Source: Halostagnicola sp. A-GB9-2 (GTDB taxonomy: Archaea > Halobacteriota > Halobacteria > Halobacteriales > Natrialbaceae). From it: a stretch of DNA of 64,000 bases. The position numbers and the translations under genes are program-made. The notes beneath the pieces are model-generated. The model did not search any database and was not told the DNA's origin. It saw only the letters and a program-made list of their open reading frames with translations. Shown here in pieces: positions 11,771-15,904 of the stretch (the stretch's first letter is position 1; each line of letters begins with the position of its first letter). The stretch is taken from the NCBI RefSeq assembly GCF_030068615.1, contig NZ_JASJOC010000003.1, positions 434,001-498,000 of the forward strand, in the 5' to 3' direction.

Positions 11771-11842
11771 TTGTTTCCACACATATCATTGGTTCCAACT
11801 ACCACACAAGACACATAGTGATCGGACCCGTTACGATAGGTG

Positions 11843-12784
11843 ATGAAGCGGTGGCTTCGCCGACGCGTCGACTGGGCCTACGAGCAGCTTCTTTCTCGAG
11901 AAATCTCCGGTGCGCCGACTCACGTCGCCGTTATTCAAGACGGCAATAGACGCTACGCGCGACGCCATGGCGGCGACGCACCCGACGGGCACCGTGCTGG
12001 CGCGGAAACGACCGAACAGGTCCTTGAGTGGTGTCAGGATATCGGCGTCGAGGAGCTCACCCTCTATACGTTTTCGACGGAGAACTTCAACCGTCCCGAC
12101 GAGGAAAACGAGGAGCTGTTCAATCTCCTTTGTGAGAAACTCCACGAGTTCGCCGACGCCGACCGCGTTCACGAAAACGAGGTTTGCATCCGTGTTATCG
12201 GCGACGTCGACCGGCTCCCGGGTCGGGTTCGGGAGGCCATCGACTATGCCGAGGATCGGACCCGCGGTTACGACTCGTTTGTTCTCAACATCGCGCTGGC
12301 GTATGGCGGCCGTTCGGAACTGCTCTGTGCCGCCCGGAGCGTCGCTCGAGACGTCGACGAAGGAGACCTCGAGCCCGAATCGATCGACGTCGAGACGATC
12401 GAATCGCGACTCTACGATAGCTCCGTCAGGGACGTCGACCTGATTATCAGAACCGGCGGCGACGAGCGGACCTCGAACTTCCTGCCGTGGCACGCCAACG
12501 GCAACGAAGCCGCGGTTTTCTTCTGTACGCCCTACTGGCCGGAGTTCTCGAAACCCGATTTCCTTCGAGGGATCCGCACCTACGAACACCGCGAGGCTTC
12601 CTGGCGTCGCACCCGTGCCCGTCGTGCGCTGGCACTGCTGGGCGCGGTCAGCGAACCCGAACTCTCGGAAGCGAAATCGGTCGTCGACCGCTTCCGAGAT
12701 TCGCTTCCGACCGGCGAACAGCCCGAGGAGGGAGACGATGAGGATCTCGAGGGCCTCGAGACGGGACGACAGGCAGCGGACTAG
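11843..12784 (+). CDS. uppS: Cis-prenyltransferase (polyprenyl diphosphate synthase), catalytic subunit
   Basis: The 313-residue UppS/DHDDS-type enzyme makes long-chain Z-polyprenyl diphosphate for the glycosyl carrier lipid (dolichol type in haloarchaea). The diphosphate-binding loop VAVIQDGNRRYARR has catalytic Asp33. Further motifs are TLYTFSTENFNRP, LNIALAYGGRSEL and IIRTGGDERTSNFLPW. The C-terminal region after FLRGIRTYEHR lacks the RxG motif that homodimeric bacterial enzymes carry and ends in an acidic tail. That suits a subunit that needs a partner, and such a candidate lies about 500 bases downstream (13249-13881). A GTG at 11840 abuts the ATG at 11843, and I prefer the ATG. Confidence 0.95.
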   Translation: MKRWLRRRVDWAYEQLLSREISGAPTHVAVIQDGNRRYARRHGGDAPDGHRAGAETTEQVLEWCQDIGVEELTLYTFSTENFNRPDEENEELFNLLCEKLHEFADADRVHENEVCIRVIGDVDRLPGRVREAIDYAEDRTRGYDSFVLNIALAYGGRSELLCAARSVARDVDEGDLEPESIDVETIESRLYDSSVRDVDLIIRTGGDERTSNFLPWHANGNEAAVFFCTPYWPEFSKPDFLRGIRTYEHREASWRRTRARRALALLGAVSEPELSEAKSVVDRFRDSLPTGEQPEEGDDEDLEGLETGRQAAD

Positions 12785-12926
12785 CAGAACGTGAATCGAA
12801 GCGCACCGATTTGCATCGTCGCGTGTTTGGTTTCGAAGAATACTGTTTTCGGTTCGTCCGGAAGATCGGTTTTTGGTGCGACGATTCGAAACGTTGAATC
12901 ACCAACACCCGAAATGGTCTGGTAGG

Positions 12927-13157
12927 ATGGATCGCCGACTATTCGCGATCGGACTCGCGGCAATTTTTCTCGGCGTCGCCGGGCTGGGATACCTCCTCGC
13001 AACCGGCGTCTTACAGCACCCGAGTGACGCCGCCGATCAGTACGAAACCGCCGACTTCGTCTTGATCGCGGGATCGTTCACGTCGGTAACTATCGGCGTC
13101 GTGTTGACGTTTCGCTCGTACGTTGATCTCGACCCTGACTCGAGGTCGAGGAACTGA
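12927..13157 (+). CDS. Small two-helix membrane protein
   Basis: The 76-residue protein starts MDRRLFAIGLAAIFLGVAG, giving one membrane helix (residues 4-27). A second helix lies at about residues 43-62 (FVLIAGSFTSVTIGVVLTF). A short acidic loop with two Asp joins them and a polar tail follows. The ATG at 12927 removes a charged non-conserved extension that would start at 12873. It lies between the two cis-prenyltransferase homologues, but its function is unknown. The positional link to lipid carrier synthesis is only suggestive. Confidence 0.65.
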   Translation: MDRRLFAIGLAAIFLGVAGLGYLLATGVLQHPSDAADQYETADFVLIAGSFTSVTIGVVLTFRSYVDLDPDSRSRN

Positions 13158-13248
13158 ACGCCTGCTACTGCGTTTCGAACCCACGGGCTCGATAGTAACT
13201 CTCGAATCGACGTGTTTCACGAGGATCGACGACGGACGATTCGAGCGC

Positions 13249-13881
13249 CTACTCCCCGAACCGGCGCGACCGATTGCAAAACTCTCGGACAGCACGAAGG
13301 AAGTCCCGTTTTCGGAAATCTCGCCAGTTGACATCAGTAAAGTACAGTTCCGAGTAGACCGACTGCCAGATCATGAAATCCGAGAGCCGTTCGGCTCCGG
13401 TCTTGATGACGAGGTCGGGTTCGGAAGGGAAGATTAGGTGTTCTTCAACCGCCTCGTCGTCGATCTCTTCGGGCTCGAGGTCTCCTTCGTCGACGCTGGT
13501 CGCGAGGGTCCGAATGGCGCTGGTAAACTCGTGTTTGCCGCCGAGCCCGATCCCGATCTGAATCGGCGCGTCCGCCGGCGTCTCGTCGTCCGGCCCGCGA
13601 ACTGCGCTTTCGCGGGGTGTCTCGACCGTCTCGAGATCGCTGCGAAGCGTTGGCACTGCCGCCGCGTCGAGGACGCTGACGTAGACCGTCACGCGCTCGG
13701 CGTACTCGAACGCCCACCCGAAGAAGTCGGTGAGCGTCTCGTAGGCACCCTCCTCGAGGAGGTCGCGCTCCGTGATGACGAGCGCGACGTGGTCGGGGCC
13801 GTCGGCCTCGTAGCGACCGATCCTGTGCGTCAGGTACCGTTCGTACAGTCCCACGGCCGTTGGTTTTTCTGCGAGACCCAT
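13249..13881 (-). CDS. Non-catalytic cis-prenyltransferase homologue, probable NgBR/Nus1-like partner subunit
   Basis: The 210-residue protein aligns along its length with the UppS at 11843: HVALVITERD against HVAVIQDGNR, IGIGLGGKHEF against NIALAYGGRSEL, and VIKTGAERLSDFMIW against IIRTGGDERTSNFLPW. The catalytic Asp is replaced (Thr37) and the N and RR of the DGNRR loop are lost. It ends in RRFGE, an RxG motif (207-209) at the C-terminus, as in the non-catalytic subunits NgBR and Nus1, where RxG completes the partner's active site. Heteromeric cis-prenyltransferases are known in eukaryotes and Methanosarcina. Pairing here is an inference. The start at 13881 is an ATG (MGLAEKPTAV) at the head of the conserved part. 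Confidence 0.85.
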   Translation of the reverse strand: MGLAEKPTAVGLYERYLTHRIGRYEADGPDHVALVITERDLLEEGAYETLTDFFGWAFEYAERVTVYVSVLDAAAVPTLRSDLETVETPRESAVRGPDDETPADAPIQIGIGLGGKHEFTSAIRTLATSVDEGDLEPEEIDDEAVEEHLIFPSEPDLVIKTGAERLSDFMIWQSVYSELYFTDVNWRDFRKRDFLRAVREFCNRSRRFGE

Positions 13882-14578: not shown

Positions 14579-15904
14579 GTGACAGCACCCGTCTGGCGAG
14601 CTGGCGCATTCGCAGTGCTCTCGACGCTTTCGCTCGTCCTTCCACTCTTCGGGCCGGAATCCGCGCTCCTTCTCGCGTCAGTACTGATTCTGGGCGCGCT
14701 CATCGTCACCGACGGCCGGCTCTTCGATCTCCTCGCGTACCCTGACGACTACGAAGATGGCCGCCTCTACGGCGTCATCGCGTTCGTCTTCGGCGCCGGC
14801 ATTCTCGGCTTCTTTACCACGGCGTTCTCGATGCCCGTTTCCGTGCTTGTGGGAACGATCTTCCTCGTCGGCTACGGGAACCTCGCGGAGCGACTCGCTC
14901 GCCGCAGGCTCGATCACGGGGTCCGCTCCGTCGCCGCGTTCTGCGTCGGCGGCGCCGTCGCAGGCGTGGTCGGCCAGATCGCCACGCTTTCGATCATCGA
15001 TAACTCGCTGGAGTCCGCACTGCCGGCTGTCCTCTTTCTGGCCGCCAGCGGCGCCCTGCTCGCCGCCCTCTTGCGAGACGTCCTCCTGTTGTACGACGAC
15101 CCGGTTATCATGCTCTCGGTAGGGTTGCTCCTCTGGTTGCTCGCCGAACTCGAGACGACGATCGGACCGGTCGAGATCCTCGCCGCGCTCGCGGTGACGA
15201 TCGCACTCGGGTACGTTTCGTATGCGCTCGAGACGGCCTCGATCGCAGGAATGCTGACCGGCGTCTTGCTCGGCCTGCTGACGATCGTTCTCGGTGGGTA
15301 CGGCTGGTTCGTCGTCCTCATTTCCTTCTTTGCGATCGGCGGGCTTTCGACGAAGTTCCGCTACGACGAGAAAGAAACTCGCGGCGTCGCCGAAGAGAAC
15401 GACGGTGCGCGAGGGAGCGGGAACGTGCTCGGTAACGCCGCCGTGGGACTGGTCGCAGTTCTCGCCTACGCGGCGAGCTCGGCCGGCATGATACCCCGCG
15501 AACCCGAATTGTTTCTCTTCGCCTTCGCGGGATCGGTCGCGGCCGCGATGAGCGATACGCTCTCGAGCGAGGTCGGGAGCGTGTTCGATAAACCGTTGTT
15601 AATCACGACGCTCGAGCCGGTCGACCCCGGAACCGATGGCGGTCTCACTTGGCAGGGAACTGTGGCCGGGTTCGGTGGTGCGACCATCGTCGCAATACTG
15701 TCTTATGCCTTTTTCGCCGAAGTGGGCCTCGCCGGTGCGGCGATCATCGCGACTGCGGGATTCGTCGGCATGATCGTCGACAGTATTCTGGGTGCGACGC
15801 TCGAGGGGTCGTCGCTGGGCAATCAAGGCGTGAATTTCCTGGCGACGCTCTCCGGAGCGATCCTCTGTGCGCTGCTCGTATTGTCGTTGGCGATCCTCGG
15901 CTGA
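14579..15904 (+). CDS. Long DUF92 family membrane protein, possible prenyl-lipid kinase
   Basis: The 441-residue protein has many membrane helices. The C-terminal half (about residues 225-441) is a DUF92 domain, with FFAIGGLSTKFRY, AMSDTLSSEVGSV and GNQGVNFLATLSGA. DUF92 includes plant VTE6, the CTP-dependent phytyl-phosphate kinase. The N-terminal ~200 residues add further helices and a GYGNLAERLARRRL stretch that loosely recalls the CTP-transferase/dolichol kinase family. Proximity to the cis-prenyltransferase pair suggests a role in phosphorylating a prenyl alcohol or phosphate, which is an inference. The start is a GTG at 14579 with no better ATG near the conserved N-terminus. Confidence 0.85.
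   Translation: MTAPVWRAGAFAVLSTLSLVLPLFGPESALLLASVLILGALIVTDGRLFDLLAYPDDYEDGRLYGVIAFVFGAGILGFFTTAFSMPVSVLVGTIFLVGYGNLAERLARRRLDHGVRSVAAFCVGGAVAGVVGQIATLSIIDNSLESALPAVLFLAASGALLAALLRDVLLLYDDPVIMLSVGLLLWLLAELETTIGPVEILAALAVTIALGYVSYALETASIAGMLTGVLLGLLTIVLGGYGWFVVLISFFAIGGLSTKFRYDEKETRGVAEENDGARGSGNVLGNAAVGLVAVLAYAASSAGMIPREPELFLFAFAGSVAAAMSDTLSSEVGSVFDKPLLITTLEPVDPGTDGGLTWQGTVAGFGGATIVAILSYAFFAEVGLAGAAIIATAGFVGMIVDSILGATLEGSSLGNQGVNFLATLSGAILCALLVLSLAILG

Follow-up and report, generated by a model that had tools for sequence, protein, structure and literature searches.

Introduction

The closest described relatives of the gene pair reported here are the human cis-prenyltransferase (cPT) made of DHDDS and NgBR, the cPTs of Methanosarcina mazei, and the homodimeric UPPS of E. 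coli (1jp3) and its relatives. In the human cPT, according to PMC7573591, NgBR reaches across the interface with its C terminus; its RxG is part of both substrate sites, and its terminal carboxylate touches the catalytic Arg37 and Arg85 of DHDDS. By the same account, NgBR shortened or lengthened by one terminal residue gives lower activity, and the helix-turn-helix of DHDDS past the core is incompatible with the tail interaction in DHDDS homodimers (PMC7573591). For M. mazei, PMC8131916 describes MM_0618 and MM_1083 as a heteromeric cPT with C45-50 products, and also MM_0014, which lacks the RxG yet is an active homodimer; the MM_0014/MA1831 type gives shorter products.

In this study, a stretch of 64,000 nucleotides from Halostagnicola sp. 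A-GB9-2 (the window) was investigated, in which two neighbouring genes, here called A and B, encode a catalytic cPT candidate and a homologue without the catalytic motif. The initial annotation of the window had suggested a two-subunit enzyme, and this is supported by comparison, namely by co-occurrence, residue sets, fold, clades and homology to the M. mazei pair. What was observed comprises the sequences, their distribution, the residue partition, the predicted single-chain folds and the clades, and from these it is very probable that A and B are the subunits of one heteromeric cPT, whose product would be the polyprenyl diphosphate from which the dolichol-type glycan carrier is made. This kind of heteromer is already known from M. 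mazei; what is new is its fixation across the phylum, the Glu213 signature, the tail-to-tail gene order and the single-copy cPTs of the Asgard archaea.

Sequences and alignment

A total of 320 cPT sequences were aligned with mafft and scored at E. coli UPPS residue positions, the E. coli residue numbers being assigned via PDB alignment and the residues to score being chosen from the literature on this enzyme. The sequences were grouped into class A (DGN only, 122), class B (RxG only, 102) and class H (DGN and RxG, 71), the last consisting of single-copy enzymes from outside the Halobacteriota. Sixteen loci were left out, namely the MM_0014 type, the Thermoplasmatota second copies, the G544 pair, the Lokiarchaeia genes with an insert and three isolated odd loci, as well as nine unclassed sequences, mainly A genes truncated by the locus end. 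Since the classes are defined by DGN and RxG, independent tests come only from the remaining alignment columns and from how the genes are spread over the genomes.

The two candidate subunits

Table 1. Features of the A-B locus in the window
Feature	Coordinates	Strand	Basis
A, catalytic cPT subunit candidate, DHDDS-like role, 313 aa	11843..12784	+	Pfam/NCBIfam full-length match, AF2 model, residue table
Membrane-like ORF of 75 codons between A and B, outside the proposed enzyme	12930..13157	+	no Pfam/NCBIfam match; tblastn
B, non-catalytic cPT subunit candidate, NgBR/Nus1-like role, 210 aa	13249..13881	-	PF01255 C-terminal half, 145/145 Halobacteria, AF2 model
R-F-G-E tail codons and stop of B, predicted to enter the A active site	13249..13263	-	sequence, one-residue-after-RxG rule, NgBR precedent (PMC7573591)
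Membrane protein of the DUF92/TIGR00297 family, encoded upstream of B and conserved there	14579..15904	+	Pfam PF01940

The initial annotation had placed A correctly and had read its motifs correctly: Asp33 lies in the catalytic motif IQDGNRRYA, and no RxG at the family position occurs within the final 60 residues. A starts with ATG, a GTG lying immediately 5' at 11840, and matches PF01255 over profile positions 1-216 of 219 with 231.9 bits (cut-off 27). The AF2 model (pLDDT 88.0) shows the cPT (zeta) fold, with a VIA Z of 30.8 to E. coli UPPS 1x06 (226 residues, 1.7 A) and of 30.3 to DHDDS 7pb1_A. All residues of the catalytic half of the active site are retained, so that A has the full half-site and the fold of the homodimeric UPPS; unlike these enzymes, it lacks both the RxG and the Glu213-equivalent (now Ala224), and the RxG and DGNR that mark a homodimeric UPPS when they stand on one chain are not found together in A. 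In the model, helices 237-268 and 272-287 extend past the core, and A thus resembles DHDDS in being the catalytic type, in its C-terminal helical extension and in having no RxG. Short tails are common among the A proteins of other lineages. An R-x-G of some sort was detected near the C terminus in 7 of the 122 A sequences, and only one of these (L069, RRFGG) is RxG-like.

B reads 'HVALVITERDLLE' where A reads 'HVAVIQDGNRRYA', TERDL replacing DGNRR with Thr37 at the Asp site, and its C-terminal end is NRSRRFGE, that is, RRFG and then one residue; the lost DGNRR, Thr37 and the RRFGE end had all been noted in the initial annotation and are borne out by the sequence. With A carrying DGNR but no RxG and B carrying RxG but no DGNR, the pair shows the arrangement expected of archaeal heteromeric cPTs of the MM_0618/MM_1083 kind. 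The match of B to PF01255 covers positions 115-219 only, with 92.2 bits, far above the cut-off of 27. Its AF2 model (pLDDT 85.8) has the cPT (zeta) fold as well, with a VIA Z of 14.3 to NgBR 6z1n_B and of 14-15 to cPT chains, and shows one short helix where the A model has the tunnel helices. T-E-R-D-L-L and R-R-F-G are invariant in an alignment of ten Halobacteria B proteins. A set of 68 sequences from all parts of the phylum shows 16 columns without variation, and across the phylum the TERDL site also reads SEKDM, AEDDL, TGEDI and NESDL. The invariant motifs in the ten aligned proteins, together with the presence of B in 145 of 145 Halobacteria genomes, indicate that the sequence pattern of B is not due to chance.

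The description of B as NgBR/Nus1-like holds for its role: B shares with NgBR an RxG followed by exactly one residue, and both have Lys where E. coli UPPS has Arg194. It should be taken in this sense only. B has kept far more cPT sequence than NgBR, and it matches the C-terminal half of UPPS strongly (1e-29) and NgBR weakly (1e-3). No membrane anchor of the NgBR kind was seen, there being no hydrophobic segment by eye in the 210 residues of B or in the 42 codons upstream. An independent origin is likely, as the sampled Asgard archaea have a single complete cPT.

Partition of the active-site residues

The comparison with DHDDS/NgBR and Methanosarcina drawn in the initial annotation, that of complementary losses, agrees with the residue table, which adds the Glu213 site. 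The sites of Arg30, Ser71, Asn74, Arg77, Arg194, Arg200 and Ser202 are retained in all 122 sequences of class A. In class B, those of Arg30, Ser71 and Asn74 are substituted and those of His43 and Arg77 are almost entirely gaps. Class B does retain Trp207, Phe216 and the tail. Glu stands at the Glu213 site in 71 of 71 H sequences, in 102 of 102 B sequences (101 of 101 from the Halobacteriota when L375, an Asgard row with a cut N terminus, is set aside) and in none of the 122 A sequences, which have Ala (86), Val (15), Ile (7), Thr (5) or other residues (9). In B of the window, this site is Glu178. Among the 204 DGN sequences, RxG and Glu are both present in 71 and both missing in 131; two have Glu without RxG, with N-x-G instead, and none has RxG without Glu. 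The Glu213 site is thus a second complementary loss, a third signature besides DGNRR and RxG. The human pair is alike, the counterpart being kept in the partner as NgBR Glu262 (numbered back from Lys293) and lost in the catalytic subunit, with Cys in DHDDS. Exactly one residue follows the RxG in all 177 aligned RxG sequences.

Distribution across archaeal genomes

A and B are the sole cPTs of the host genome (4.68 Mb, 38 contigs), in which no third cPT was detected. Failure of the homologue to co-occur with UppS in other haloarchaea, which the initial annotation had named as evidence against the pair, is not what the genomes contain: a PF01255 match and B are present in all 145 Halobacteria genomes and at least two cPT matches in 144, the exception (G072, 120 contigs) having a B-type match only. 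In the Halobacteriota as a whole, 190 of 196 genomes have a cPT match, with at least two in 186, one in four and none in six. Named members of the phylum, located by means of 16S anchors, agree with this: one match that stops short of the profile end and one that covers about 108-219 were observed in Haloferax gibbonsii, Methanoculleus and Methanothrix as well as in Methanoperedenaceae, ANME-1 and Archaeoglobaceae, and Methanosarcina displays the same pattern plus a third, MM_0014-like match. Five of the six genomes without any cPT are all five members of one family (G151, G160, G169, G178 and G185 of f17; f12, f17 and the like are family codes, not taxon names). These genomes have lost A and B jointly, which raises the question of the carrier lipid used there.

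The other archaeal phyla mostly have one match, extending to profile position 219. A cPT match was found in 61 of 69 Asgard genomes, mostly as a single complete cPT and with a second place in two genomes; in 34 of 36 genomes of the phylum of Methanocaldococcus, with one gene split across contigs; in 55 of 60 Thermoplasmatota genomes, with a second place in seven; and in all 61 Thermoproteota genomes, four of which have more than one place.

Gene order and neighbours

In the window, A and B converge tail to tail with 464 bases between them. The small ORF in this gap has no match in Pfam or NCBIfam, and was recovered by tblastn in only 10 of the searched loci, being present near some relatives only. 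A and B lie within 10 kb of each other in 113 of the 145 Halobacteria genomes and converge in every one of these 113. Outside the Halobacteria, both positions were available, among the matches listed, for 87 of 163 genomes; within this set the two genes lie within 10 kb in 34 genomes (32 convergent, one divergent, one tandem), and they are widely separated in many lineages. In contrast to the window, the pair is far apart or on separate contigs in the Methanosarcina family (f12). The gap of convergent pairs ranges from a 54-base overlap to 3.2 kb in 63 loci, gene ends being those of the open frames. At five loci (L276, L289, L274, L280 and L277), the two genes, on opposite strands, share 13-54 bases at their 3' ends, and the tail codons of B there face the end of A. 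No shared operon of A and B was found among the near pairs in Halobacteria. These counts describe an old tail-to-tail neighbourhood rather than an operon, and, since A and B are convergent and often far apart, co-expression is not evident.

The DUF92 gene is transcribed opposite to B on the side away from A. In 29 of the 30 loci L033-L062 and in 23 of the 30 loci L092-L121, two sets which overlap in genomes, a gene of this family is found no more than 1.5 kb from B. The plant phytyl-phosphate kinase VTE6 belongs to the DUF92/TIGR00297 family, and a role of the protein in polyprenol or polyprenyl-phosphate metabolism is possible, for example as a polyprenol or polyprenyl-phosphate kinase.

Phylogeny and origin

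The A rows of the Halobacteriota form one clade (SH-aLRT 96) and the B rows another (SH-aLRT 100), each including a Methanosarcina member. A Methanosarcina genome (G320) harbors exactly an A-clade cPT, a B-clade cPT and the MM_0014 orthologue, so that by elimination the reported MM_0618/MM_1083 pair corresponds to A plus B. The two pairs thus belong to the same phylum and the same clades; they differ in that the M. mazei pair has reported activity, whereas the haloarchaeal one is known here from sequence and predicted folds. The MM_0014/MA1831 type is like A in having no RxG, and is co-resident with A and B in Methanosarcina genomes, but it forms a clade of its own and works as a homodimer.

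In the free tree, the A and B clades stand apart and the deep forks are weakly supported. Forcing the two as sisters costs 5.2 log units and is not rejected (p-AU 0.425), and a single duplication in the Halobacteriota stem giving both is possible. The eukaryotic split into DHDDS and NgBR most likely took place independently of the archaeal one, as suggested by the sampled Asgard genomes, which hold one complete cPT, in a tree without eukaryotic rows.

The proposed enzyme and other explanations

The association of the two chains, the geometry of the complex, its activity, its product and its role in N-glycosylation are what we infer from the observations above. A would contribute a hydrophobic tunnel together with the catalytic half-site, made up of Asp33, Asn35, Arg36/37, His50, Ser78, Asn81, Arg84, Arg203, Arg209 and Ser211, and B, with the same fold and its own active site lost, would pair with A via the conserved W-Q-x-x-Y-x-E-L-Y-F-T-D region. 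The C-terminal Arg-x-Gly of B and the one terminal residue are predicted to insert into the active site of A, where the tail may bind isopentenyl diphosphate and order loop 78-84, as NgBR does on DHDDS, and Glu178, the glutamate of ELYF, would belong to the donated half-site. The tunnel helices of A, the short helix of B and the human tail precedent suggest that A holds the substrate and the chain, and that B completes the site from outside.

One may suppose instead that A is a self-sufficient homodimer in which its own altered C terminus closes the site, as in MM_0014, and that B has a separate function, for example as a regulator binding prenyl diphosphates. Such a homodimer without RxG does exist in MM_0014 (PMC8131916), which means that the absence of RxG does not by itself prove the need for a partner and that A alone might have activity; moreover, the two genes are not transcribed together and, outside the Halobacteria, are often unlinked among the matches listed. 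We nevertheless consider this explanation unlikely. MM_0014 belongs to a different clade and has retained T-L-G-G as well as an acidic residue at the position of Glu213, neither of which A has; the residues missing from A are exactly those retained in B; and the two genes co-occur nearly universally and are absent together in f17. The C45-50 carrier precursor of M. mazei, too, comes from the pair, as reported in PMC8131916.

It could also be that B itself catalyses a different reaction, TERDL serving in place of DGNRR, and that the two proteins work as separate enzymes. The invariance of T-E-R-D-L-L in the ten Halobacteria proteins does point to a constrained replacement and not to decay, and Lys160, Arg165 and Ser167 of B preserve much of the isopentenyl diphosphate site. 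Across the phylum, however, the motif at this site is variable, B has nearly all gaps at the His43 and Arg77 sites, and its predicted fold has a short helix in place of the tunnel helices of A, which makes this explanation very improbable. That B is a decaying, functionless paralogue is scarcely credible even with its catalytic motif lost, as its match is kept in 145 of 145 genomes and its 16 columns are invariant phylum-wide.

If A and B form the heteromer proposed here, the pair would offer a counterpart of human DHDDS/NgBR that is genetically tractable and apparently has no membrane anchor. Haloarchaeal S-layer N-glycosylation, for which Haloferax volcanii serves as the standard model, needs the carrier lipid; open-access text searches returned no paper testing a two-subunit cPT in this species.

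Beyond the window, we lean slightly towards the reading that the active site of cPTs is built from two half-sites which have come apart more than once, in the Halobacteriota stem, in eukaryotes, apparently in genome G544 of the Thermoproteota and, part of the way, in some Thermoplasmatota, the same residues parting each time. The cis set may comprise Asp26, Asn28, Arg30, Ser71, Asn74, Arg77, Arg194, Arg200 and Ser202, and the trans set may comprise the RxG, Glu213 and a chain that always ends one residue past the RxG. Were this so, Glu213 of homodimeric UPPS would act, together with the RxG, on the active site of the neighbour, and the residue partition would amount to an evolutionary map of the residues in a cPT dimer that work on the neighbouring site. 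Literature searches on Glu213 in UPPS and on NgBR S249 gave no match.

Further cPT variants in other archaea

In G544 (L384 and L385), one cPT is of the A type, having no RxG and carrying Tyr in place of Glu213, and a second is of the B type, in which DGNRR is lost and RxG and Glu are retained. Both fall outside the Halobacteriota clades, and an independent split is possible; since the pair occurs in one of the 41 genomes of its order, with the genes on separate contigs, it may also be a contamination or a lone case. In five of the 60 Thermoplasmatota genomes and in G335 (L322 and L378-L382), a complete copy is accompanied by a second cPT that lacks RxG and has another residue in place of Glu213, and this A-like copy perhaps represents a half-way stage of subunit specialisation.

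Three Lokiarchaeia sequences with NVNRR or TVNRR were considered as a second non-catalytic subunit and rejected, because their genes carry a 30-base insert without which DGNRR is in frame. This insert lies between the DG and NRRWA codons in 10 of the 29 readable Lokiarchaeia genomes (L418-L424, L432, L433 and L435), has equal length in all ten, and contains an in-frame TAA or TAG in nine. It displays a conserved hairpin with paired changes, and it looks like either a very short mRNA intron of BHB type or a case of obligatory readthrough.
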